A DNA stretch of 17,333 bases from an uncultured Planctomycetaceae bacterium (GTDB taxonomy: Bacteria > Planctomycetota > Planctomycetia > Pirellulales > Pirellulaceae), in the NCBI GenBank assembly GCA_903927685.1, contig CAIYOB010000175.1, positions 1 through 17,333 on the forward strand. The letters are read 5' to 3'. Positions 6,836 to 17,333 of this stretch are shown here, piece by piece; within the stretch, counting starts at the first letter, position 1, and the number at the start of each line of letters is the position of its first letter. A model generated the notes under the pieces. The model saw nothing but the letters and a program-made list of their open reading frames with translations. It did not search any database and was not told the DNA's origin. Position numbers and translations under genes: made by a program.

Positions 6836-7297
6836 ATGACCGAGAATCCCCCCAAGGTTACTGACCAAGTTACCTACCAGTGCCCGGTCTGCGGCCAGGC
6901 GTTGCACGGTGAGCCTTCGTTGCCGCGGTTCGACGCTCCCTGCTCCGGATGCGGTGCCCATATCTGGTGCCGGCGGCGATTCACCCAGGGCGACACGGTC
7001 TTGGATGTACTGCCGCAACGGACGCCCGAACCGCACGATGTCATCCAGGTCGTCGAAAGCCTGACACGTGGCGGCGCGGCGCCGTGCGTGACTGTCAATC
7101 TCGCGCAACTCGACACGGTGGACAGCGCCTTTGTCGCCCGTTTGGTGAGCATGAACAAGCAGATCCGCTCGTCCGGCGGCCGGCTGATCTTGAGCGGGCT
7201 CAGCACGGTCGTGCGCGAGGTGTTCGAGCAACTGCGACTGGATCGGGCCTTCGAGATCGAGGACCGCAGCGACGAGTCGGCCACGCGGGTGCGTTGA
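6836..7297 (+). CDS. Zinc-ribbon/STAS-domain fusion, anti-sigma factor antagonist-like
   Basis: A 153-residue cytoplasmic protein with two parts. Residues 14-45 form a zinc ribbon: C16-P-V-C19 and C36-S-G-C39, with C45 nearby. Residues about 65-145 resemble a STAS domain, the fold of SpoIIAA and RsbV. The VTVNLAQLDTVDSAFVARLV segment has the typical strand-turn-helix, with S97 in the VDS motif at the position that is phosphorylated in anti-sigma antagonists; GGRLILSGLSTVVREVFEQL is the following strand and helix. By family, it would bind and be phosphorylated by a serine kinase of the anti-sigma type, releasing a sigma factor or another partner. No kinase or phosphatase gene is next to it. 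The zinc ribbon on a STAS domain is unusual and could direct it to a nucleic acid or protein. A promoter candidate lies about 110 bases upstream. Confidence 0.75.
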   Translation: MTENPPKVTDQVTYQCPVCGQALHGEPSLPRFDAPCSGCGAHIWCRRRFTQGDTVLDVLPQRTPEPHDVIQVVESLTRGGAAPCVTVNLAQLDTVDSAFVARLVSMNKQIRSSGGRLILSGLSTVVREVFEQLRLDRAFEIEDRSDESATRVR

Positions 7298-7301
7298 GTG
7301 C

Positions 7302-7316
7302 GGGCGGCCGCCGCCC
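7302..7316. terminator. GC-rich hairpin between convergent genes
   Basis: GGGCGG (7302-7307) pairs with CCGCCC (7311-7316) around a three-base loop, 5 bases after the STAS stop codon and in the 80-base gap before the convergent peptidase gene. Position suggests a two-way terminator; there is no T-tract on either side. Confidence 0.3.
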
Positions 7317-7377
7317 CCGGAAGGCGCCGCCGACGGGGCCCTGTCGCCGCACACCTGTCGCTCAGCAGGGCGGCGGA

Positions 7378-8067
7378 TCAGCGTTCCTGGTACTGGCCGA
7401 AAATCGCTAAATTGGCGTCCTGCTCGTACAGCAGCGCGTCGTTCTCGACGATCGCCGGATCGCCGCCTTCGATCCACAGGAACGACAGTGTGTAGACCAT
7501 CGTCTTGGGCATACGTTGCCGCGCGTGCCGGAATTCGTGACACAGGACCGCGGCGATCGTCCCGTCGTTCTCGGCGAACAGTCCGCTGGTGATGGTCAGG
7601 TGCCCACGGAGGGCGTCGTACTTTGCCAGTTGGCCGATCGGGCTGGGCCCCTGCGTCGCACGGTTGGCAAACTGCAGCTTGCCGGCCTCGCGAGTTCGCC
7701 GCACCCAGTCAGCGACCGCCGGGTTGACCTCGGACAGAATCGCCAAAGCTGGCCCCAACGCCTGCCAACGCGCCGCCTCGTCCGTCCGGGCAAAGACGCA
7801 TTCCGAGTGCGAGGTGCGCCGCGGATCGAGGTTCGCCGCGGGCCGCAGCGCGTGGAAAGCCGGAATCGGGCCGTCGCCGGTCGCCAGCCATAACTGCAGC
7901 AGCCCCAACATCGCCAGGACGAGCACGCTGTACTTCAAGCAGTACCGCGGCACGTTTCGGCAATCCGCTACGGCACACTGGGCTTGGCTGACGACCCGGC
8001 CAAGCAGCGTCACGTCCGCTGGCAACACTCGCCCCGTCGCCGGCTGCCATGCTCCTGCTATGCTCAT
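7378..8067 (-). CDS. Membrane-anchored HExxH zinc metallopeptidase-like protein
   Basis: A 229-residue protein. The start at 8067 is chosen because GAGGG lies about 5 bases upstream; the frame remains open back to 8325, but that extension has no recognisable domain. Residues 1-44 are likely cytoplasmic and contain several cysteines. Residues 45-62 (YSVLVLAMLGLLQLWLA region) form one membrane helix, so the rest should be extracytoplasmic. The catalytic motif is LCHEFRHARQ (175-184), with H177 and H181 as zinc ligands and E178 as general base. A third ligand could be E208 or E215 in the segment VENDALLYEQDAN; this cannot be settled by eye. I cannot name a peptidase family. The short domain with HExxH near the C-terminus suggests a minimal gluzincin-type domain. 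The gene is divergent from the AEP operon. Confidence 0.65.
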   Translation of the reverse strand: MSIAGAWQPATGRVLPADVTLLGRVVSQAQCAVADCRNVPRYCLKYSVLVLAMLGLLQLWLATGDGPIPAFHALRPAANLDPRRTSHSECVFARTDEAARWQALGPALAILSEVNPAVADWVRRTREAGKLQFANRATQGPSPIGQLAKYDALRGHLTITSGLFAENDGTIAAVLCHEFRHARQRMPKTMVYTLSFLWIEGGDPAIVENDALLYEQDANLAIFGQYQER

Positions 8068-8338
8068 CTTGCCCTCGCTCGCAGGCACTGTGGTCGTGCC
8101 AAGATCCACTGGAATCCCACCGGCGGGCATTTCTCGTCCGTGACGCCGGGAGTCGACTTCAACACCCCCACCGCGGGACTCGCCTTCATGAAATCTTAGC
8201 AATTGAATCGGCCCGTGCCTAATGCCAGCGGCGCGAAAACAAAGCGAAAACGCAAAGAATTCACCGACTCTTGTCCAGGGCTTCACGCTTTCTTCATAAA
8301 GACGGCTTTTCGCCCGGTCATCCACGTCTACCCGAGTT

Positions 8339-8382
8339 ATTCACAGTCCGTTCACTGGCTCTTCACGAACGGACACTACAGT
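8339..8382 (+). promoter_or_regulatory. Candidate Pho box and promoter of the AEP operon
   Basis: Three units, ATTCACA (8339-8345), GTTCACT (8350-8356) and CTTCACG (8361-8367), repeat with an exact 11-base period. After a gap of 9 bases comes TACAGT (8377-8382), a 4-of-6 match to a -10 box. Direct repeats of about 7 bases with an 11-base period, placed about 10 bases before a -10, are the hallmark of PhoB/PhoP binding sites; GTTCACC is, as I recall, the conserved core in Streptomyces PhoP boxes, and E. coli PhoB units often end in GTCAC or GTCAT. The array lies about 100 bases before the first gene of a phosphonate operon. Binding is inference; the array itself is seen. Confidence 0.55.
8346..8374. 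repeat. 8-bp perfect inverted repeat overlapping the Pho-box-like array
   Basis: GTCCGTTC (8346-8353) and GAACGGAC (8367-8374) are exact inverses separated by 13 bases. The repeat interleaves with the TTCAC units and ends just before the -10-like hexamer. It could be a separate operator for a dimeric repressor or an incidental palindrome. Confidence 0.45.
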
Positions 8383-8469
8383 CTGGCCCCAGATACGAAG
8401 TGCCGAGGTGTGCTCAGGGGAGCACGAATCTCGGCGATGGATCAGAACTGTCTTGGAAAGGAAGGAACG

Positions 8470-9363
8470 ATGAGAGATTGTCGGAAACGGGCTGCGTTCA
8501 CGTTGGTCGAACTATTGGTGGTCATTGCCATCATCGGGGTCTTGGTGGCCTTGTTGTTGCCGGCCATCCAGTCGGCCCGCGAGGCTTCGCGGCGAGCCTC
8601 TTGCCAGAACAACTTGAAGCAGATCGGTGTGGCGTGCCAGAATCACCACGATACGTACCAATACCTGCCCGGAGCCGGCTCGGACGGCCCGCACGTGGAC
8701 TGCTGCAACGCGACCGAGCGAGGCGGCTGGAGTTGGTCTTTCTACCTCACGCCATTCATCGAGCAGGCGGCGGTGTTCGAGACCGAGGATACGACGGCCG
8801 GCCAGGCGATCGTGTCGACTTCGGTGATCGCCCCGTACTACTGCCCGACTCGGCGAGCGCCGAAGTTGTACGGCTCGTATGCCAAGTGCGACTACGCGGG
8901 CAATGCGGGCAGCACGATGAGTGTCTACGGCAAGGACGGCGTGTTTGTCCGCCAGTGGACCGGCTTGCCCAAAGCCGCGGACACGATCCTGAATCCGGCC
9001 GACGTGCGCCGCCGCTTTGCGGACATCTCGGACGGCACTTCCAACGCGGCCTTGGTCGGTGAGAAGCAACTGCACGCAACCGTCTTGGGCACCGCGGGCG
9101 GCGACAACGAACGCTGGAGCAACGCGGGATTCGACCAGGACGTGGTGCGTGTCGGGTACCAGACCCCGCAGCCCGACAGCATGCACCCCGACGACAAGCA
9201 GCCGACGTTCTGGTCGGACCGGTTTGGCGGTCCCCATCCCGCCGGTGTCAACATCGTCCGCGTCGACGGGTCGGTCGACATCGTCTCGTACGACGTCGAT
9301 CCCACCGTCTGGTTGCAGTTCTGCACGATCGCCGACGGCAATCCCATCCCGACCAAGTTCTGA
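8470..9363 (+). CDS. DUF1559 protein with type IV pilin-like N-terminus, first gene of the AEP operon
   Basis: A 297-residue pseudopilin-like protein of the family greatly expanded in planctomycetes. The ATG at 8470 follows AGGAAGGA by a few bases, a strong ribosome site; the upstream open frame lacks one. Residues 9-35 are the prepilin signature: [16 protein letters not shown], where cleavage would leave Phe at +1 with Glu at +5, then a continuous hydrophobic helix ending LLLPAIQ. The next segment, [19 protein letters not shown], is typical of DUF1559. The C-terminal head contains [28 protein letters not shown] and DPTVWLQ, also family hallmarks. The protein should sit in the inner membrane, possibly assembled into a pseudopilus, but no molecular function is proven. 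Its place as first gene of a phosphonate operon, behind a Pho-box-like site, is notable. Confidence 0.9.
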
Positions 9364-9395
9364 GACACCGACGGCCTTCTCGAAAGGAATCACTT

Positions 9396-9575
9396 ATGCG
9401 TAAGTTTGTGACGTGTTTGCTGGGGATCGTTCTGCTGGGCGTGATGGGCTGCGGCGGCGAACAGGAGTCGCCGCGCGAGCCGGGCGCCGTGAGCGAAGAT
9501 GAGATCCGCAAGATGGACCAAGAGCAACAGGCGGTCGATGCGGCCGAGCGGGAACAGCGGAAGTCACAGCCGTGA
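9396..9575 (+). CDS. Small predicted lipoprotein, 59 residues
   Basis: The frame begins at an ATG 8 bases after AAAGGA, and reads MRKFVTCLLGIVLLGVMGC, a short signal peptide with a good lipobox (VMG|C19). The mature part is about 40 residues, very polar and acidic with Glu/Gln/Lys runs (DEIRKMDQEQQAVDAA), probably one helix. It lies 32 bases after the DUF1559 gene, and its TGA overlaps the GTG start of the permease (GTGA, 9572-9575), so permease translation is probably coupled to it. DUF1559 genes in planctomycetes are often followed by small lipoproteins, and this pair fits that habit. No function is known; an accessory to the pseudopilin or to the permease is a guess. Confidence 0.78.
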   Translation: MRKFVTCLLGIVLLGVMGCGGEQESPREPGAVSEDEIRKMDQEQQAVDAAEREQRKSQP

Positions 9576-10963
9576 ACGAGCGGCCGGTTGGCGAGTCCCG
9601 ACTGCCCGCTGCCGCGGTGACGGGCGCCACGCTACCGCAGGCGAGAACTGCGGCTGGCGCCCCAAGTCCCAGCGCACCGGCGCCTCGTCGGCTGGCCTTG
9701 TCTCTGTGGTGTGTGGCGGCCGCGTTCGGCACCTACTTCTGCATGTACGCGTTTCGCAAGCCGTTCACCGCGGCCGAATACGGCGGCTATGCCCTGGCAG
9801 GCTGGGAGTTCAAGACGGTCTTGGTGGCCACCCAGATCCTGGGCTACACAATTTCCAAGTTCATCGGGATCAAAGTCATCGCCGAAATGGATGCCCGCCG
9901 CCGGGCCGTGGCGATCCTGGTCCTGATCGGCAGCGCACAGGCGGCGCTGTTGCTGTTTGCCCTCATCCCGGCACCGTACAACTTCGTCTGCCTGTTCTTC
10001 AACGGCCTGCCCCTGGGGATGGTGTTCGGGCTGGTCTTGGGCTTCCTCGAAGGCCGCCGGATGACCGAGGCGCTGAACGCCGGGCTGTGCGCCAGCTTCA
10101 TTCTCGCCGACGGAGTGACCAAGTCTGTGGGCGCGTACCTGCTGGAGTGGGGCGTCAGCCAGTTCTGGATGCCGTTCCTGGCCGGGCTTCTATTCCTTCC
10201 GCCGCTGGCCTTGGGAGTCTGGATGCTGGCCCGGATTCCGCCTCCGGACGCGGCGGATGTTGCGCACCGCAGCGTGCGCTTGCCCATGAACCGGGCGGCG
10301 CGGTGGCAGTTCTTCCGCCGTTATGCGACCGGCTTGACCCTGATCGTCCTGCTGTATCTGCTGGTGACCGTGCTCCGCAGCATCCGTGCGGATTTCGCCG
10401 CCGAGATCTGGCGGGGACTGGGGATCACTCAGCAGCCCAGCGTGTTCACGAGTTCCGAGATGTGGGTGGCGTTGGGTGTGATGCTGGTTAACGGCCTGAG
10501 CGTCCTGATCCTCGACAACCGGCGGGCGTTCTTTGCCGCGCTGGGGACGTGCGGAGCGGGACTCTTGCTGCTGGCGGTCGCCCTGCTGGGACACGCCGGC
10601 GGTTGGCTGAGCGGCTTTGCCTTCATGGTTCTGACCGGATTGGGATTGTATCTGCCGTATGTGGCAGTGCACACGACTATCTTTGAGCGGTTGATCGCGA
10701 TGACCCGCGATCGGGGCAACATCGGCTACTTGATGTACTTGGCCGATGCCTTCGGATACCTGGGCTACGTGGCGGTGATGTTCGGCAAGGGCGCGTTGGC
10801 GCAGCGGGCGCAGTTCCTCGACTTCTTCCTGGCGACGTGCGGGATCATCACGGCCGTAGCCGCCTTGTTGCTGGTCGGAGTGGGATGGTACTTTTTCGAC
10901 CATCGGACAACATCCGTTGCGACAGAACCGGCCCTGGCGGGCGAACCCGCCGCGGGACGGTGA
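9572..10963 (+). CDS. 12-helix MFS permease (DUF5690-like), candidate AEP transporter
   Basis: A 463-residue membrane protein starting at a GTG that overlaps the preceding stop by 4 bases. After a 40-residue Pro/Ala-rich cytoplasmic tail I count 12 hydrophobic helices (about 42-61, 81-101, 112-132, 137-158, 168-190, 199-220, 250-268, 295-313, 318-338, 345-368, 388-406, 415-441). I recognise it as the DUF5690 type. Helix 1 has YAFRKPF (59-65) and helix 2 has YTISKFIG (92-99). Aligned by eye from memory, these match YLVRKNF and YGFSKFIMG of E. coli GlpT, the glycerol-3-phosphate:phosphate antiporter. R62, K96 and R269 (TVLRSIRADF, helix 7) fall on GlpT R45, K80 and R269, which surround phosphate. 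With phnX and phnW in the same operon and no ABC transporter, uptake of AEP, perhaps in exchange for phosphate, is the natural inference. Confidence 0.8.
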   Translation: MNERPVGESRLPAAAVTGATLPQARTAAGAPSPSAPAPRRLALSLWCVAAAFGTYFCMYAFRKPFTAAEYGGYALAGWEFKTVLVATQILGYTISKFIGIKVIAEMDARRRAVAILVLIGSAQAALLLFALIPAPYNFVCLFFNGLPLGMVFGLVLGFLEGRRMTEALNAGLCASFILADGVTKSVGAYLLEWGVSQFWMPFLAGLLFLPPLALGVWMLARIPPPDAADVAHRSVRLPMNRAARWQFFRRYATGLTLIVLLYLLVTVLRSIRADFAAEIWRGLGITQQPSVFTSSEMWVALGVMLVNGLSVLILDNRRAFFAALGTCGAGLLLLAVALLGHAGGWLSGFAFMVLTGLGLYLPYVAVHTTIFERLIAMTRDRGNIGYLMYLADAFGYLGYVAVMFGKGALAQRAQFLDFFLATCGIITAVAALLLVGVGWYFFDHRTTSVATEPALAGEPAAGR

Positions 10964-10981
10964 ATACACGGAGGACGGGAG

Positions 10982-12100
10982 ATGAAACAAACCGATTCCA
11001 GGGACTTGGCGACCGCTGCTCCGGGCGGCGTGCGAGCCGGTCGAGCGGCGGTCTTCACCGGCGTCGGGCGGCCGCTCGAACTGCAGACCATGCCCGTGCC
11101 GGAGCCGAAGACGGGCGAGATCCTTGTGCGCGTACTCGGCTGCACCGTGTGTGGGAGCGACGTCCACACCTGCTTGGGCCGGCGGACGACGCCCTTGCCG
11201 GCGATTCTCGGTCACGAGATCCTCGGCCGGATCGAAGCCTTCGGAACGGCGGCGCCGCGCCGGGATGCCCGCGGCCGGCCGTTGAACGCGGGGGATCGCG
11301 TCACCTGGTCGCTGGTGGCCAGTTGCGGGGCCTGTTTCTATTGCCGTCGCGGCCTGCCGCAGAAGTGCACGCAGGCGTTCAAGTACGGGCACCAGGCCCT
11401 GCAAGCGGAACTTGGACCGCGGGGCGGACTGGCCGACTACTGCCTGCTCGCGCCGGGAACCGCGGTGGTGCGGCCGGACGAGACGCTCAGCGACGAAGCG
11501 GCCTGCCCGGCCAACTGCGGGACCGCGACGATGATCGCGGCGGCCGAAGCGGCCGGGGACGTGCGCGACCGTTGCGTCGTAGTGCTGGGCGCCGGACTGC
11601 TCGGCCTGACCGGCTGTGCCCTGGCCCGCAGCCGCGGTGCGGCCGAGGTGATCCTGGCAGACACCCAGGCGAGCCGTCTGGCACGGGGCGAGATGTTCGG
11701 CGCCACGCGGATCGTGGCTGCCGACCAATTGGCCGCCGACGTCAAGTCGGCGACGAGCGGCTACGGCGCCGACGTGATCATCGACACGGCCGGCGTGCCG
11801 GAAGCCTTTGAGGCCGGTTTTCCGCTGCTCCGGCTGGGCGGCACGTTCGTCCTGGTCGGCGCGGTGTTCCCGGCGCGGGCCGTCGACCTGCACGTCGAAC
11901 GCATCGTCCGCAGGAACCTGCGGCTGTGCGGCATTCACAACTACCTGCCGGAACAACTCGTCCGGGCGCTCGAGTTCCTGGAGCGTCGCGAGTTTCCGTG
12001 GGACACGCTGGTGTCGCAATGGCTGCCGCTGGCCGAGGCCCAGCGGGCGTTTCAGCGGGCGCAGGACCCGGCGGTCGTGCGCGTCGGCGTGCGGCCGTAG
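10982..12100 (+). CDS. Zinc alcohol dehydrogenase, phosphonate-catabolism associated (HpnZ-like)
   Basis: A 372-residue medium-chain dehydrogenase with a GGAGGA ribosome site 6 bases before its ATG. Catalytic zinc residues are C57 (TVCGSDVH), with H78 and E79 in GHE. The structural zinc loop is C115, C118, C121 and C129 (SCGACFYCRRG...KC). The Rossmann nucleotide loop is VLGAGLLGL (201-209), followed by an acidic residue at the end of the second strand (VILAD), pointing to NAD rather than NADP. The closest group I know is the 'putative phosphonate catabolism associated alcohol dehydrogenase' set (TIGR03366), found beside AEP genes. Its substrate is unproven. It might oxidise a hydroxyphosphonate into the pathway, interconvert phosphonoacetaldehyde and 2-hydroxyethylphosphonate, or reduce the acetaldehyde released by PhnX. 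Confidence 0.88.
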   Translation: MKQTDSRDLATAAPGGVRAGRAAVFTGVGRPLELQTMPVPEPKTGEILVRVLGCTVCGSDVHTCLGRRTTPLPAILGHEILGRIEAFGTAAPRRDARGRPLNAGDRVTWSLVASCGACFYCRRGLPQKCTQAFKYGHQALQAELGPRGGLADYCLLAPGTAVVRPDETLSDEAACPANCGTATMIAAAEAAGDVRDRCVVVLGAGLLGLTGCALARSRGAAEVILADTQASRLARGEMFGATRIVAADQLAADVKSATSGYGADVIIDTAGVPEAFEAGFPLLRLGGTFVLVGAVFPARAVDLHVERIVRRNLRLCGIHNYLPEQLVRALEFLERREFPWDTLVSQWLPLAEAQRAFQRAQDPAVVRVGVRP

Positions 12101-12115
12101 GCGGGAGGAGAAAGG

Positions 12116-12280
12116 ATGCCTGTGGTGCCGCGGAAAAAGCCCTCCCCGGCCGCTACCGCGTCCGACCCTCCCGCAAGCGGGAGGGTGAAGTGCGTGACTG
12201 CGACCGAATCTGCTGCCAGCGGGAGGGGGAAGCACTGGGCGGCTGTTTGTTATGGCACGTTTAAATCTGGAGAGAATTGA
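12116..12280 (+). CDS. Small open frame with a strong ribosome site between the dehydrogenase and phnX
   Basis: A 54-codon frame starts MPVVPRKKPSPAATASDPP and ends 2 bases before the phnX ATG. Its start follows GGAGGAG by 5 bases, the best ribosome site in the operon. The product is basic and low in complexity, with SGRVK and SGRGK arising from two copies of GCGGGAGGG in the DNA, so it is likely to be repeat-derived. It could be a translated spacer that keeps ribosomes moving into phnX, or a relic: the strong ribosome site may once have served phnX before the repeat was inserted. No homologue is recognised. Confidence 0.3.
   Translation: MPVVPRKKPSPAATASDPPASGRVKCVTATESAASGRGKHWAAVCYGTFKSGEN
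12165..12186. repeat. Perfect 10-bp palindromic hairpin, dispersed-repeat-like
   Basis: ACCCTCCCGC (12165-12174) and GCGGGAGGGT (12177-12186) are exact inverses around AA. A further GCGGGAGGG copy lies at 12219-12227 and CCCTCCCC at 12140-12147. This composition resembles the short GC-rich dispersed palindromes common in planctomycete genomes. In the mRNA it would form a stable hairpin about 100 bases before phnX, where it could tune expression of phnX/phnW or protect mRNA ends. Confidence 0.6.
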
Positions 12281-12282
12281 GC

Positions 12283-13119
12283 ATGAAATCGACGTTTGAG
12301 TTTCGCCGCAGCTATCGCGGCCCGGTCCAGGCGGTGATCTTCGATTGGGCCGGTACGACCGTGGACTACGGCTGCCGGGCTCCGACCGAGGTCTTTCGCA
12401 ATGTGTTCGCGCAGGCCGGCGTCGAAATCACGGTGGGCGAAGCCCGCGGCCCGATGGGCACCTACAAGAAGGATCACATCCGGACCTTGCTGCAGCTGCC
12501 GGCTGTGGCAGAACGCTGGCGGAACGTCCACGGCCGGTTGCCGGACGAGAGCGACGTCGAGCGGCTGTACGTCCAGTTCGAGCCGCTGCAGATCGCCAGC
12601 GTTACGCAATACGCCGACGTGATTCCCGGCGTGTGCGAGACCGTGGCCTGGCTCCGCAATCGCGGCATCCGCATCGGGTCCAGCACGGGCTATACGACAG
12701 CCATGATGGAACCGCTCGTCGCTGCCGCCCGGCAAAACGGCTATGCGCCGGACGAAGTCGTCACGATGTCCGACGTCCCCGCCGGCCGGCCCGCTCCTTG
12801 GATGTGCTTCGAGAACGTCCGGCGACTGGGCGTCTACCCGATGGAGGCGGTGGTGGTGGTGGACGACACGCCGGTGGGCATCGAAACCGGGCTGAACGCG
12901 GGCGGCTGGACCGTGGCGGTGGTGAAGACGGGCAACGAATTGGGGCTGTCGCGGGAAGCGGTCGAAGCTTTGGACGCAGCCGAATTGCGGCGCCGGCTCG
13001 ACCTAGCCTCGGTCCGCCTGGCGCGGGCCGGAGCGCACTATGTGCTCGACAGCGTCGCGGACCTGCCGGCGTGCGTCGACGATGTGGAACGTCGGCTGCG
13101 GCAGGGGGAAAAGCCATGA
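12283..13119 (+). CDS. phnX: Phosphonoacetaldehyde hydrolase (phosphonatase)
   Basis: A 278-residue HAD-superfamily enzyme that splits phosphonoacetaldehyde into acetaldehyde and phosphate. The ATG at 12283 is preferred to an in-frame TTG at 12277 because GGAGAG lies 8 bases before it. The nucleophile is D21 in IFDWAGTTVD (19-28), with Ala in place of the usual HAD acid at +2, as in known phosphonatases. The Schiff-base lysine is K62 in GPMGTYKKDHIR, the cap-domain motif unique to PhnX. SSTGY (about 134-138) is HAD motif II. DVPAGRPAPW carries the substrate-loop residues, and VVDDTPVGIETGLNAGGWTV is the Mg-binding motif. The stop overlaps the phnW start (ATGA, 13116-13119). Together with phnW it forms the complete two-step AEP-to-phosphate pathway. 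Confidence 0.97.
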   Translation: MKSTFEFRRSYRGPVQAVIFDWAGTTVDYGCRAPTEVFRNVFAQAGVEITVGEARGPMGTYKKDHIRTLLQLPAVAERWRNVHGRLPDESDVERLYVQFEPLQIASVTQYADVIPGVCETVAWLRNRGIRIGSSTGYTTAMMEPLVAAARQNGYAPDEVVTMSDVPAGRPAPWMCFENVRRLGVYPMEAVVVVDDTPVGIETGLNAGGWTVAVVKTGNELGLSREAVEALDAAELRRRLDLASVRLARAGAHYVLDSVADLPACVDDVERRLRQGEKP

Positions 13120-14252
13120 CGGCCTTTGCACAACTGCCCCGCTCGCCGCTGGACAAACTCCTGTTCACCCCCGGCCCGCTGACGACCAGCATGACGGTCA
13201 AGCAAGCCATGTTGCGCGACTTGGGGTCGCGCGACCACGAGTTCCGGCGGATCATCGTCGACGTCCGCGAGCGTCTCCTGGCCGTCGCCGGCCTCACGCG
13301 GGCTGAAGGCTACGAGGCAATTCCGCTGCAGGGTTGCGGCACGATGGGGCTGGAAGCGGTTCTGACGTCCACGCTGCCGCCCCGGGGAAAACTGCTGGTG
13401 CTGATCAACGGAGCGTACGGCGAGCGGATCTTCCGGATGGTCCAGTTGCTGCCCGGAATCGAGCCCCTCGCCTATCGGGTGCCGGAAGACCAGACGTTCG
13501 ACGCGGCCGAAGTCGAGCGGCGTTTGGCCGCGGACTCGGCGATCGCGATGGTCGTCGTCGTTCATTGCGAAACGACGACGGGGATCCTGAATCCGCTGGT
13601 TCCCGTGGGCCAAGTCGTCCGGCGGCACGGCCGGCGGTTCTTCGTGGATTCGATGAGCGCTTTGGGTGGCGTGGAGTTCGATTTCCGTGGCTGCGGCATC
13701 GACTATCTGGTCTCCTCGGCGAATAAGTGCATCGAAGGCGTGCCGGGATTCTCCTTCGTCCTTTGCCGCCGCGAGGCATTGGAGTCGGCGGCCGGCCGGG
13801 CGCGGAGCCTGAGCCTGGATCTGCTGGCGCAGCTCCGCGGCTTCGAAGCGGACGGGCAGTTCCTGTACACGCCGCCGACCCACGCCTTGCTGGCCTTCCA
13901 CCGAGCCTTGGCGGAGCTGACGCTCGAGGGCGGCGTGCCGGCCAGGGCCGCCCGCTATGCCCGCAACCAACATGTGCTAGTCGACGGGATGCGGTCCCTG
14001 GGCTTCGAGACCTTTGTCCCCGACGCCCTGCAAAGCTCCATCATCACCACGTTCCGGAACCCCGTGCTTCCCGGGTTCACCTTTCAGGCGTTCTACGACC
14101 GGCTGGAGGAACACGGTTTCGTGATCTACGGCGGGAAGGTGCTCCATCAGGCCACGTTCCGGATCGGCACGATTGGCAGGCTGTTCGAGACGGACATCCG
14201 CGCGTTGCTCGCCGCGATCCGCCAGACGCTGGCCGAGCTTTCTTCACAATAA
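13116..14252 (+). CDS. phnW: 2-aminoethylphosphonate--pyruvate transaminase
   Basis: A 378-residue class V aminotransferase converting AEP and pyruvate into phosphonoacetaldehyde and alanine. The ATG at 13116 overlaps the phnX stop by 4 bases, and AGGGGGA lies just upstream, so translation is coupled; a much longer open frame upstream is only a shadow of phnX. LLFTPGPLTTS (15-25) is the conserved N-terminal motif, QGCGTMGLE (72-80) the PLP-phosphate loop, HCETTTGILNP (150-160) the substrate/cofactor segment and FFVDSMS (176-182) holds D178 for the pyridine nitrogen. The Schiff-base lysine is K204 in SANKCIEGVPGF. YGGKVLHQATFRIGTIG near the C-terminus is also typical. Length is normal for the family (about 365-380). 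The last codons overlap the first unit of a second Pho-box-like array. Confidence 0.97.
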   Translation: MTAFAQLPRSPLDKLLFTPGPLTTSMTVKQAMLRDLGSRDHEFRRIIVDVRERLLAVAGLTRAEGYEAIPLQGCGTMGLEAVLTSTLPPRGKLLVLINGAYGERIFRMVQLLPGIEPLAYRVPEDQTFDAAEVERRLAADSAIAMVVVVHCETTTGILNPLVPVGQVVRRHGRRFFVDSMSALGGVEFDFRGCGIDYLVSSANKCIEGVPGFSFVLCRREALESAAGRARSLSLDLLAQLRGFEADGQFLYTPPTHALLAFHRALAELTLEGGVPARAARYARNQHVLVDGMRSLGFETFVPDALQSSIITTFRNPVLPGFTFQAFYDRLEEHGFVIYGGKVLHQATFRIGTIGRLFETDIRALLAAIRQTLAELSSQ

Positions 14253-14296
14253 ATCAACGCCCCTTTCACGCTTCCTTAATGCTGCAGCCCCATACT
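14242..14296 (+). promoter_or_regulatory. Second, degenerate Pho-box-like array with promoter, upstream of the second DUF1559 gene
   Basis: Four 7-base units on an 11-base period: CTTCACA (14242), ATCAACG (14253), TTTCACG (14264) and CTTAATG (14275). Units 1 and 3 contain exact TTCAC; units 2 and 4 match at 3 of 5. The last unit ends at 14281 and CATACT (14291-14296), a 4-of-6 -10 match, follows after 9 bases, the same gap as in the array before 8470. The ATG of the next gene is 73 bases further. The array overlaps the 3' end of phnW. Confidence 0.42.
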
Positions 14297-14368
14297 CTCG
14301 CGGCCGGAGACGCGGGGGACGGCCCCGTTCTCCTGACGCCGTTCGCGAGACAAAACACAGGAAAGACC

Positions 14369-15313
14369 ATGAGATTGACTCGAAGGGCAGGACGGAACGT
14401 CGGATTCACCTTGGTTGAACTTCTGGTGGTCATCGCGATCATCGGGATCTTAGTCGCGCTGTTGCTGCCGGCGATCCAAGCGGCGCGGGAATCGGCCCGC
14501 CGCACCCAATGCGCGAACAATCTGAAACAGGTCGGCATCGCCCTGCACAACTATCACGAATCGTTCAAGACGTTTCCCTACGGCTGGGACAACCGCGGCA
14601 CCGGCTGGACGCTGCACCTGCTGCCGTTTGTCGAATTGAACAGCATCTACAGCACGATCCATTTCCAGGAAAGCGGGCCGGGCAACTGGGACTCCGGTTC
14701 CGAGAATCAAGTGGCCTGCGAGACGGTCATCGCGGTCTACCGTTGTCCGTCGATGCCGCTGCCCGAGCACGTTGATTACAACGGTATCGCAAACCGGGTG
14801 CCGGCCAGCTACCGCGGTTGCTCGGGGTCGGAGTCCAGCAGCGATGACGCGAGCGACGCAAGTCCAGGCACCAAGTCGTTGGAACATCTTAAGCAAAATG
14901 GCGTTTTCTACGCCTGCAGCAGCGTGCGTTTTCCGGACGTGTCAGACGGCACGTCGAATTCGATCTTCGTCGGCGAGTCCCGCACCGATCCCGATTTCAG
15001 CAAGGACGGACAGGGGATGGACTTCTGGTACATCGGTTCGCCGCAGGCGGACCCGTGCGCGTGCGACGGCGGGACGGGAGGGACCGAGTTCACCGAGTTC
15101 GTGGGCTCTACCCTGGCCCCCATGAATGCCTTTATCAAGCGGCCCGATGTCTCCGGATACCTCATGGAGCTGTCTTTTGGCAGCTACCACCCGGCCGGCG
15201 CGCATTTCCTGATGGGAGACGGGAACGTCCGCTTCATCCAGGACTCGATCGACCCAACGGTCTACCTCGGCCTCGGCTCCATCCGCGGCGGCGAAACCGT
15301 GTCGGGGTTCTGA
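14369..15313 (+). CDS. DUF1559 protein with type IV pilin-like N-terminus, after phnW
   Basis: A 314-residue paralogue of the protein at 8470. The ATG at 14369 is chosen because AGGAAAG lies a few bases upstream and the prepilin leader MRLTRRAGRNVG is short and basic, as expected. Cleavage before [20 protein letters not shown] would expose the methylation-type N-terminus with Glu at +5. QAARESARRTQCANNLKQVG follows, then a head with VSDGTSNSIFVGES, a Cys-containing acidic loop (PQADPCACDGG), YHPAGAHFLMGDGNV and DPTVYLGLG. It is 116 bases after phnW, so it may be read through from the operon or driven by its own Pho-box-like promoter. Beyond a membrane-anchored pseudopilin-like protein its function is unknown. 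Confidence 0.9.
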   Translation: MRLTRRAGRNVGFTLVELLVVIAIIGILVALLLPAIQAARESARRTQCANNLKQVGIALHNYHESFKTFPYGWDNRGTGWTLHLLPFVELNSIYSTIHFQESGPGNWDSGSENQVACETVIAVYRCPSMPLPEHVDYNGIANRVPASYRGCSGSESSSDDASDASPGTKSLEHLKQNGVFYACSSVRFPDVSDGTSNSIFVGESRTDPDFSKDGQGMDFWYIGSPQADPCACDGGTGGTEFTEFVGSTLAPMNAFIKRPDVSGYLMELSFGSYHPAGAHFLMGDGNVRFIQDSIDPTVYLGLGSIRGGETVSGF

Positions 15314-15369
15314 CGGCGCGCCAAGCCGCGAATCCACTCAATCTTCAGCGACCACACGACGGGTACGAA

Positions 15370-15849
15370 ATGACGACATTCAGATTGCGTTTGGCTTCGA
15401 TCCTGGCACTCGGCGCCGCGGCTTGTACTGGATGCGGCCAGGCCGGTCCGGACTACGCGAGTCTCGGTCTGTGCTCGGTTCAGGGCACGGTGACGTTGGA
15501 CGGCTCGCCCTTGGAAAGAGCGCTCGTGCTATTCGAACACGAAGACAAGACGTTTTCCTACGGGCTGACGGACAGCAGCGGCCACTACGAGTTGATGTTC
15601 AACTCGCGGCAACCGGGCGTTCTGAAGGGCAAGAAGACGGTCCGCATCTGGTCGTCCCGCGGCATTCCCGGGGCCTCGGAAGCCGGTAGCGGCGAGGAAG
15701 GCGCGGAGCCGGATGCGATGGGCGGTGAAGAGGGGCGGAAGCCAACCCCGGCGGCAGCCGAGCGGGTTCCGGCCAAGTACAACACCAAATCCGAACTGAC
15801 GGCGACCGTCGAGAAGGACGCAGAGTTCGACTTTCCGCTGACATCGTGA
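15370..15849 (+). CDS. Lipoprotein with carboxypeptidase-regulatory-like (Ig-like) domain
   Basis: A 159-residue predicted lipoprotein. The signal peptide is MTTFRLRLASILALGAAAC, with lipidation at C19 or C22 (ACTGC). Residues about 35-75 read VQGTVTLDGSPLERALVLFEHED, then YGLTDSSGHYEL, the beta-sandwich pattern of the carboxypeptidase regulatory-like domain. A Gly/Glu-rich disordered stretch (about 98-130) follows, and the end, VPAKYNTKSELTATV then FDFPL, closes the domain. Such lipoproteins commonly follow DUF1559 genes in planctomycetes; this one is 56 bases after such a gene and probably co-transcribed. The domain binds or stiffens extracellular proteins in other contexts; no enzymatic residues are seen. 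No strong ribosome site is evident upstream of the ATG. Confidence 0.83.
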   Translation: MTTFRLRLASILALGAAACTGCGQAGPDYASLGLCSVQGTVTLDGSPLERALVLFEHEDKTFSYGLTDSSGHYELMFNSRQPGVLKGKKTVRIWSSRGIPGASEAGSGEEGAEPDAMGGEEGRKPTPAAAERVPAKYNTKSELTATVEKDAEFDFPLTS

Positions 15850-15920
15850 GCCGGTTCGGCCCGATTCGCGCAAGAACGCCAAGGCGGAGCCCTCGCAGCG
15901 GGTGCCTGGGGTCGAGCGGC

Positions 15921-15999: not shown

Positions 16000-16614
16000 T
16001 TACTCGCGCGGCGGCAGCCGCCCTTCGGCCCGCATCCGCTGAGCGACCTCGCGCATCCGCTTGCGGTACAGGTACGGCGATTCGAAGGGGACCGGTCCGG
16101 CCGCCGACGCCGCGTCCCGGCAGGCGGCGGCCGGCTCGGGCAGCCCGTTGTCGCCGAACACCGAGACCGTCTCCACGGCCAGCCCCGCCGCCAGCAACAA
16201 GACCGACACATTCTTGCCGTTCACCAAGACGTACCCCAGCGTGCGGCCGTACGGATCGAGCGTCGCGGCGCGGACCAGTTCCACTCTGTCCGCAGCAGCA
16301 AAGACGCCGCGCGTGAAGGCCACCGCCTCCGGGCCGAACGGCTGGTCGTAGGGAATGTCGTGCTCGACGTGCCGCGTCTCGGGCGCGTCCATTCCCAAAA
16401 TCCGTACCGTCTCCGCCTCCGCCGGCCCCCAAGCGATCACAATCGTGTCCCCGTCGTCGACGCGCACGGCGTCGACCGGCACCGGGACATTGACGCCATG
16501 CGGACGGGGTTGAGGTTGGGGCGGATTGTCTGCCCCGGGGGCCTGGGAAGCCAGGGCCACGGCCAGGACGAGCGAGACACTGCCCGGACGCCAGAATCGG
16601 AATCGTCGCGTCAT
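16000..16614 (-). CDS. Exported thermonuclease-like (SNase-fold) nuclease
   Basis: A 204-residue protein of the staphylococcal nuclease family, which cuts DNA and RNA with calcium. The start at 16614 is preferred because AAGAGGAG lies about 6 bases upstream; a longer frame back to 16659 has no such site. Residues 1-28 are a signal peptide (RPGSVSLVLAVALASQAPGA), followed by a Pro/Gln linker to about 45. Family residues are all present: D56 in VDDGDT, R71 in VRILGMDAPET, D77, E96 in FGPEA and R124 in DPYGRTLGYV, matching SNase D21, R35, D40, E43 and R87. The C-terminus (about 165-204) is an Arg-rich helix. It should be an active secreted or periplasmic nuclease, useful for scavenging nucleic-acid phosphate, though no Pho-type control is evident on its own strand. 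Confidence 0.88.
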   Translation of the reverse strand: MTRRFRFWRPGSVSLVLAVALASQAPGADNPPQPQPRPHGVNVPVPVDAVRVDDGDTIVIAWGPAEAETVRILGMDAPETRHVEHDIPYDQPFGPEAVAFTRGVFAAADRVELVRAATLDPYGRTLGYVLVNGKNVSVLLLAAGLAVETVSVFGDNGLPEPAAACRDAASAAGPVPFESPYLYRKRMREVAQRMRAEGRLPPRE

Positions 16615-16737
16615 CGAATCTCCTCTTGGTGGTTGGTGAGTGATGGCCCAGGAGAACATCCGCGGGTTAGGGAATCGGGAAGAACACGTGAAGAGGCAAA
16701 GAAGAACACGCGGCGGCGAGCCTGGCTGGCGGGCTGA

Positions 16738-16766
16738 TTTCCCCGATTCTTCACGGGTTCTTCGCC
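16738..16766 (+). promoter_or_regulatory. Weak 11-base-period TTCAC-like repeats before the Sel1 gene
   Basis: TTTCCCC (16738), CTTCACG (16749) and CTTCGCC (16760) recur every 11 bases; only the middle one has an exact TTCAC. They end 40 bases before the ATG at 16807, and no -10-like hexamer lies at the expected spacing. This may be chance and is listed for comparison with the two arrays near the AEP genes. Confidence 0.2.
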
Positions 16767-16806
16767 AGAACCCAACCGGGCAGATTTAGCATCTCGCGAA
16801 AGGCCA

Positions 16807-17333
16807 ATGACAACCCCCGGGAGCAAGAGCATGGTCGCAGTTCCACTCGGCAGTCGCGTCGCTTCGGTTGCGGTTCGGGAAATGACAACAAGGGGGGCCG
16901 TCGCCCGGCGATCGGCGCCGCCTCGGCCGCAGGTTGCCGCCGGAGGGCTCGCCCAATTGCGCCAATCGGCTCGGGCTGGCCATGTCACGGCCATGTATCG
17001 GCTCGGCGTTGAGTCCCCCGAGCCCGAGGAACGTGAACACTGGCTGCGTGAAGCCGCGCACGAGGGCTACGTCCCCGCGATGTACGCGTTCGGCCTGAGC
17101 TGTGAACGTCCCGGGTGCCGTCGCAGCTGGCTGCGTGCGGCAGCGGAACAGGGGCACGTCGAGGCGATGTACGCGTTGACCGCGGAACTGGAGGACTTTG
17201 ACGAGCGCCAACGCTGGTTGCAGGCAGCGGCCGAAGAAGGGCACGTGGCCGCGATGTATTATTGGGGCCTGGTCTGCGACGATCCCCGCGAGAGCGAGCG
17301 GTGGCTGAGCGAAGCGGCTCGCAACGGCTGCCA
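16807..17333 (+). CDS. Sel1-like repeat protein, 3' truncated by the window
   Basis: The frame begins at ATG 16807, after AAAGG at 16799-16803, and stays open to the end of the window (175 complete codons); an in-frame stop at 16735 limits the start. Internal ATGs at 16831 and 16882 are alternatives. Residues 1-57 are basic and Ala-rich with no clear signal peptide. From 16978 on come four helical repeats of exactly 29 residues, each beginning G-[HY]-V-x-A-M-Y and ending W-L-x-x-A-A. The A-M-Y and W-L...A-A positions match the two helices of Sel1-like repeats, but canonical ones are about 36 residues. The next repeat starts (GC) as the window ends. Such solenoids act as protein-binding scaffolds; the partner is unknown. 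Confidence 0.75.
   Translation, partial: MTTPGSKSMVAVPLGSRVASVAVREMTTRGAVARRSAPPRPQVAAGGLAQLRQSARAGHVTAMYRLGVESPEPEEREHWLREAAHEGYVPAMYAFGLSCERPGCRRSWLRAAAEQGHVEAMYALTAELEDFDERQRWLQAAAEEGHVAAMYYWGLVCDDPRESERWLSEAARNGC
16978..17325 (+). repeat. Four tandem 87-base coding repeats (29 residues each)
   Basis: Units run 16978-17064, 17065-17151, 17152-17238 and 17239-17325. The protein motifs AMY and WL are in register in all four, while the DNA has diverged, so the repeats are old and kept by selection on the protein. Confidence 0.8.

Follow-up and report, generated by a model that had tools for sequence, protein, structure and literature searches.

A predicted Pho-box promoter ahead of a DUF1559 gene and a row of phosphonate genes in a planctomycete

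A Pho box substitutes for the -35 element and keeps a set distance to the -10 element, and 11-base tandem sites are also used by other regulators of the OmpR family. PHO boxes are built of 11-nt direct repeat units (PMC4415409). The core of the S. coelicolor unit is GTTCACC; that of E. coli is CTGTCAT, and there PhoB overlaps the -35 region together with sigma (PMC4415409, PMC3348028). The PhoP box of S. coelicolor comprises up to several such units with TTCAC in their core and lies before pstS (PMC4415409, PMC7866108), and phosphonate genes stand behind a Pho box in the phn cluster of E. coli (PMC7866108). RegX3, of the mycobacterial SenX3-RegX3 pair, is likewise named as a phosphate-responsive regulator (PMC4415409). 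For planctomycetes, no Pho box was found in the open-licence literature searched, mostly as titles and abstract openings; the two papers that contain both terms use them in unrelated places, the Pho boxes being those of Acinetobacter and Agrobacterium (PMC11828411, PMC3972451). A 2026 survey of 926 genomes identified neither PhoP nor PhoR in some Planctomycetota genomes and cautions that divergent homologues of both may be missed (PMC13170248). Against this background we describe one planctomycete family in which pst operons and a PhoB-PhoR pair have boxes, together with a boxed gene row that includes phosphonate genes. The Pho box is a known kind of element, and the phylum is apparently new for it.

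The window, by which we mean the whole stretch of 17,333 nucleotides that was analysed (uncultured Planctomycetaceae bacterium, GenBank assembly GCA_903927685.1, contig CAIYOB010000175.1), contains the following repeat arrays and -10 element:

8260 to 8297, plus strand: distal array of TTCAC (8260), TTGTC (8271), TTCAC (8282) and TTCAT (8293), period 11
8340 to 8366, plus strand: predicted Pho-box array of three TTCAC units, period 11, from the sequence and the matrix score
8377 to 8382, plus strand: predicted -10 element TACAGT, 10 bases (8367 to 8376) past the last unit
14243 to 14280, plus strand: array TTCAC/TCAAC/TTCAC/TTAAT, starting within the last bases of phnW and preceding the second DUF1559 gene

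The three TTCAC units (8340-8344, 8351-8355 and 8362-8366) lie at a period of exactly 11 bases, precisely where the earlier, sequence-only reading of this DNA had seen them; the TACAGT element that it reported is present as well, at a gap of 10 bases and not 9. Since the two spacers between the units differ (AGTCCG and TGGCTC), the array is not a tandem repeat. Matches to the TTCAC triple with at most three mismatches number nine in the window against 0.19 expected, a count reached in none of 200 shuffles. Scored with a matrix trained solely on pst arrays from other genomes, the site reaches 31.7 bits (28.0 for the units alone), whereas the best of 1000 dinucleotide shuffles of the window attains 16.0 bits (15.8 for the units) and none equals the site, which bears out the earlier judgement that three such units are improbable by chance. 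The shuffle scores and the differing spacers thus lead us to reject both a chance and a tandem-repeat origin of 8340-8366. With its 11-nt direct repeats, a core of known type and a fixed gap to the -10 element, the segment 8340-8382 is very probably a Pho-box promoter, the predicted site of a phosphate-starvation regulator.

The sequence-only reading had placed this box before an AEP operon. Phosphonate genes do follow in the same row, but the nearest gene is a DUF1559 gene starting at 8470:

7378 to 8325, minus strand: ORF of a divergent gene, whose part conserved in the relative described below begins near 8070
8470 to 9363, plus strand: DUF1559 (SBP_bac_10) protein with a type IV pilin-like N-terminus (PF07596, 5.2e-43; PF07963), the first gene past the box
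9396 to 9575, plus strand: putative lipoprotein of 59 aa, from its sequence
9572 to 10963, plus strand: DUF5690 protein (PF18943, 4.6e-142)
10982 to 12100, plus strand: HpnZ-type phosphonate-associated alcohol dehydrogenase (TIGR03366, 365.8 bits, cut-off 328.1)
12277 to 13119, plus strand: PhnX phosphonoacetaldehyde hydrolase (TIGR01422, 350 bits, cut-off 220)
13116 to 14252, plus strand: PhnW 2-aminoethylphosphonate--pyruvate transaminase (NF010006, 455.2, cut-off 296; TIGR02326, 433, cut-off 400.8)
14369 to 15313, plus strand: second DUF1559 protein (PF07596, 2.4e-52)

The first phosphonate-associated gene of the row starts at 9572 and phnX at 12277, so that 3.9 kb, including a 176-base gap after hpnZ, separate the box from phnX. 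The adjacent phnX and phnW, both above curated cut-offs and overlapping by four bases (ATGA, 13116-13119), form a phnW-phnX degradation operon; in contrast with the E. coli phn genes, which are a C-P lyase cluster, the window thus carries the hydrolytic route, behind a pseudopilin-like gene. DUF5690, whose function is unknown, occurs in 25 of 40 PhnX loci of the family and is, from its neighbours, a candidate phosphonate transporter. The putative lipoprotein had no match in a Pfam search and shares 50% identity over 56 aa with the ORF behind the DUF1559 gene of the relative.

We infer that the box acts as promoter for the DUF1559 gene and that it would control the phosphonate genes by read-through, which the 4-base gene overlaps support but do not prove. 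When phosphate is scarce, a PhoR-type kinase would phosphorylate a PhoB-type regulator of the OmpR family, which would bind the three TTCAC units head to tail, and perhaps the distal array too. The bound regulator would substitute for a -35 element and recruit RNA polymerase to TACAGT, giving a transcript that would start near 8388-8390 and may carry the DUF1559, lipoprotein, DUF5690, hpnZ, phnX and phnW genes as one message. 2-Aminoethylphosphonate would then be imported, presumably by the candidate transporter, and cleaved for its phosphate.

The PhnX of the window matches a metagenome-assembled genome of Candidatus Anammoximicrobium (locus L001, 77% identity), and we scanned all 9.7 Mb of this genome (G001) for TTMAC-N6-TTMAC-N6-TTMAC, allowing a single mismatch and using the reversed pattern as a control. 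Four triples were found against none for the control: one ahead of phoB-phoR, one ahead of DUF5690-hpnZ-phnX, one ahead of the window DUF1559 gene's orthologue and one beside a resolvase gene, the last probably by chance. TTCAC alone proved too narrow a unit, with eight matches at up to two mismatches against four for the reversed pattern. The array before the phosphonate genes of G001 reads TTAAG (7122), TTCAC (7133), TTAGC (7144) and TTAAC (7155), followed by N10 and TAGAGT. The boxed OmpR-family regulator has TAGAAT, also at gap 10, and its gene is followed by that of a HAMP-PAS histidine kinase. Its best match by sequence among solved structures is RegX3 (2oqr, 1.3e-45), from a different phylum, and of its ten homologues at E <= 1e-60 in the 41 genomes searched, G001 included, seven have a PstC or PhoU gene no more than about 7 kb away. 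The pstS gene of G001 lies at a contig end, with its upstream promoter beyond the contig.

The DUF1559 orthologue of G001 is 83% identical to the window gene and its divergent neighbour is orthologous as well, but this cassette is on one contig (C93) and the phn operon on another (C259), each boxed, whereas the window has them in one gene row. Ahead of the G001 DUF1559 gene stands TTAAC/TTAAC/TTGAC, a strong array with a unit score of 22.4 bits that, in a MAFFT alignment with this locus (L221), falls opposite the distal units 8271-8297 of the window. The gene-proximal array of G001, CTAAC/GTCAC/CTAAC-N10-TAGACT, is weak, its 12.7 bits being less than the best window shuffle attains. By its build and its distance it corresponds to 8340-8382, the -10 element ending 84 bases before the start codon in G001 and 88 in the window; in the MAFFT alignment its units are not in register with 8340-8366.

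The repeat recurs at phosphate genes in the family of G001. Among 119 family genomes, the exact TTMAC triple has 65 matches in 38 genomes and the reversed triple 28 matches, both counts including tandem repeats; 11 of the 65 adjoin a PstC gene. We took the best 80 PstC places by rank as the pst set, and when one mismatch is allowed, triples are present there at spacing 11 in 20 of 80 regions and at each other spacing from 6 to 33 in 0-2. From these 20 arrays we built a leave-one-out matrix that requires three units, with a cut-off of 14 bits that was our own choice and equal for all spacings. Counted by locus, on either strand and at any position, and with the caution that related genomes are not independent, this matrix found sites at spacing 11 in 54 of 80 pst regions as compared with 1-4 at spacings 9, 10, 12 and 13, leaving 26 regions without a site of 14 bits or more. 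At the same four control spacings, phoX loci had 0-3 sites versus 9/22 at spacing 11, and loci of phoB homologues 0-1 versus 6/10; the dnaN control loci gave 1/30 at spacing 11 and 0-4 at the others. The claimed 11-base repeat of phosphate genes was thus recovered before phoB in G001 and at pst, phoX and phoB-homologue loci of family genomes, which supports the Pho-box reading. It was not recovered at the phosphonate loci of the family (40 of the 57 places above the cut-off), where no box stands out from background (3/40 at spacing 11 versus 3-6/40 elsewhere), and the idea of a box common to phosphonate operons family-wide finds no support here. The link between phosphonate genes and a Pho box is seen within a single genus-level group, and not generally in the family. 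At the phylum level, where each locus reached no further than 1.5 kb upstream of PstC, sites at spacing 11 occur in 7 of 30 pst loci and sites at six other spacings in 0-3, which suggests phylum-wide use of the 11-base array.

Most of the pst sites (49 of 54) sit 1063-1601 bases before PstC, where pstS begins, on the strand of PstC in 37 cases and on the opposite one in 17. That all 54 are upstream of PstC says little, because the regions analysed contain far more sequence upstream (median 4072 bases) than downstream (485). The nine phoX sites comprise four upstream on the same strand, four upstream on the other strand and one inside the gene, and not all six phoB-homologue sites are directed at the regulator gene. 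A TANNNT follows at a gap of exactly 10 bases in 14 of 35 held-out and 6 of 19 training pst sites, compared with a background of 0.0047 per position; at the other gaps from 0 to 29, the held-out sites have one each at 8, 20, 21, 22 and 23 and none elsewhere. In another count 7 of 20 arrays carry this -10 element, and 34 of the 54 pst sites are without it. The planctomycete box accordingly differs from that of S. coelicolor in its unit, TTMAC (A 0.52 and C 0.48 at the third place), which is preceded by a mild TC and lacks a strongly conserved base behind it, as against GTTCACC, and in having a -10 element at gap 10 in 20 of 54 pst sites; from the E. coli PhoB box, which shares the tandem 11-nt units (PMC4415409), it differs in its core word. 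The 11-base arrays at pst, phoB and phn genes of relatives, together with TANNNT at gap 10, are what make 8340-8382 very probably a Pho-box promoter. They provide a concrete, testable operator for the planctomycete phosphate-starvation response, TTMAC-N6 three times, N10 and TANNNT, with which Pho regulons can be predicted from the genomes of this mostly uncultured group.

How far the influence of the window box extends can be read in a second way, with the box serving the DUF1559-lipoprotein pair only and the phosphonate genes being expressed constitutively or from another promoter. The location of the boxed DUF1559 gene and the phn operon of G001 on separate contigs fits this reading and implies that the DUF1559 box need not be a phn promoter in origin, and most phn loci of the family have no box. 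We nevertheless consider it rather unlikely, because the stop codon of the lipoprotein gene overlaps the start codon of DUF5690 (GTGA, 9572-9575) and in G001 a box of like build stands at the phn operon itself, so that both species have a box before the phn row. A search of 8150-15900 found neither a sigma-70-type -35/-10 pair nor a plus-strand terminator-like site, each a weak negative given that shuffles yield 0.8 and 5.9, respectively. A search of the window at up to two mismatches showed no array in the stretch from the DUF1559 gene to DUF5690.

The array could also be the binding site of an OmpR-family regulator other than PhoB, and here the genes behind the exact sites are informative. 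The loci analysed contain 53 distinct exact sites, of which 11 were flagged as tandem repeats, including one ahead of a PstC gene; for 32 of the remaining 42 a script picked a downstream ORF, and 20 of the 32 ORFs were searched against Pfam. These 20 are PstS (2), PhoU (2), PhoX (1), a phosphate-selective porin (1), phytase-like (1), DUF1559 (5), response regulators (3, one being that of G001), a sulfatase (1) and four others (pentapeptide, HD, HlyD and PP-loop). Several OmpR-family regulators use direct repeats of about 11 bases, and two boxed regulators besides that of G001 (at L249 and L263) have no PhoB assignment. Control of the window site by such a relative of PhoB is nonetheless very unlikely in view of the PstS, PhoU, PhoX, phosphate-selective porin and phytase-like genes, of the dominance of pstS promoters, of the histidine kinase behind the boxed G001 regulator and of the proximity of PstC or PhoU genes to most of its homologues. 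Finally, a functionless chance arrangement of TTCAC words, for which one could invoke the imperfect triples at control genes and at other spacings and the site beside the G001 resolvase gene, is hardly credible for a site whose score is reached in 0 of 1000 shuffles, with the G001 orthologue of the gene behind it having one of just four sites genome-wide.

The most interesting side of the Pho-box promoter is its repeated tie to DUF1559, a large family of unknown function whose members become candidate phosphate-response genes. DUF1559 genes stand behind Pho boxes twice in the window, in G001, at a further family locus (L071) and in at least 5 of the 32 exact-site genes (binomial P 2.5e-5, assuming that they make up 1.1% of genes; the seven genomes counted have 19-79 copies each), and they also occur beside phosphonate genes. 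L071 is one of the three phosphonate loci with a site: at 7240-8838 it has an array ahead of a DUF1559 gene and one more ORF, and this DUF1559 gene is divergent from DUF5690-ADH-phnX. We tentatively propose, as a conjecture with somewhat less than even chances, that some of these pseudopilin-like proteins form a phosphate-starvation module in planctomycetes and may build a surface or secretion machinery that collects organic phosphorus; in the lineage of the window such a gene could have become the promoter-bearing head of the phn operon, with the Pho box kept although the promoter changed.

Other arrays of the window were not listed in the sequence-only reading. The distal array, a weaker in-phase array 80 bases upstream of the main box, scores 15.9 bits on its units, barely over the shuffle maximum of 15.8. 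The array at 14243-14280, ahead of the second DUF1559 gene, scores 20.6 bits, above all 1000 shuffles, and is followed by a -10-like TACTCT at a gap of 12 instead of 10 bases (14243-14298 in all). Over 171 residues the second DUF1559 protein shares 82% identity with the DUF1559 ORF that follows phnX in L001, where a weak CTAAC/GTCAC/CTAAC-N10-TACACT (11.9 bits) precedes the orthologue. Two different DUF1559 promoters of G001 (L001, 11097-11139, and L225, 6607-6649) are near-identical, with CTAAC/GTCAC/CTAAC-N10-TANACT in common, and by their sequences they look as if they had been duplicated along with their genes.

TTCAC-like arrays occur on both strands at 16666-16792, with unit scores above the maximum of 1000 shuffles (15.8 bits). 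On the minus strand, TTCAC/TTCCC/CTAAC (22.6 bits on the units) lies where a gene for an SNase-family nuclease (16000-16659, PF00565) starts; Pho control of this nuclease would fit the array, but its distance to the annotated ATG is just 6 bases. On the plus strand, TTCCC/TTCAC/TTCGC (17.5 bits) continues to CCAAC-N10-TAGCAT ahead of an ORF at 16807. At the other end of the window, 721-1692 encodes a threonine-dehydratase-like enzyme whose best NCBIfam match, at 443.4 bits and below the cut-off of 550, is the beta-hydroxyaspartate dehydratase BhcB. The divergent gene had no match in a Pfam search of 7378-8325; its part at 7378-8070 is 67-70% identical in G001 and contains a CHEFRH stretch that, by eye, resembles an HExxH motif. 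Between the divergent and the DUF1559 genes, CTTCATSAAATCTTAGC (8184-8200 in the window, 1415-1431 in L221) is conserved in both species and may be part of the divergent promoter.
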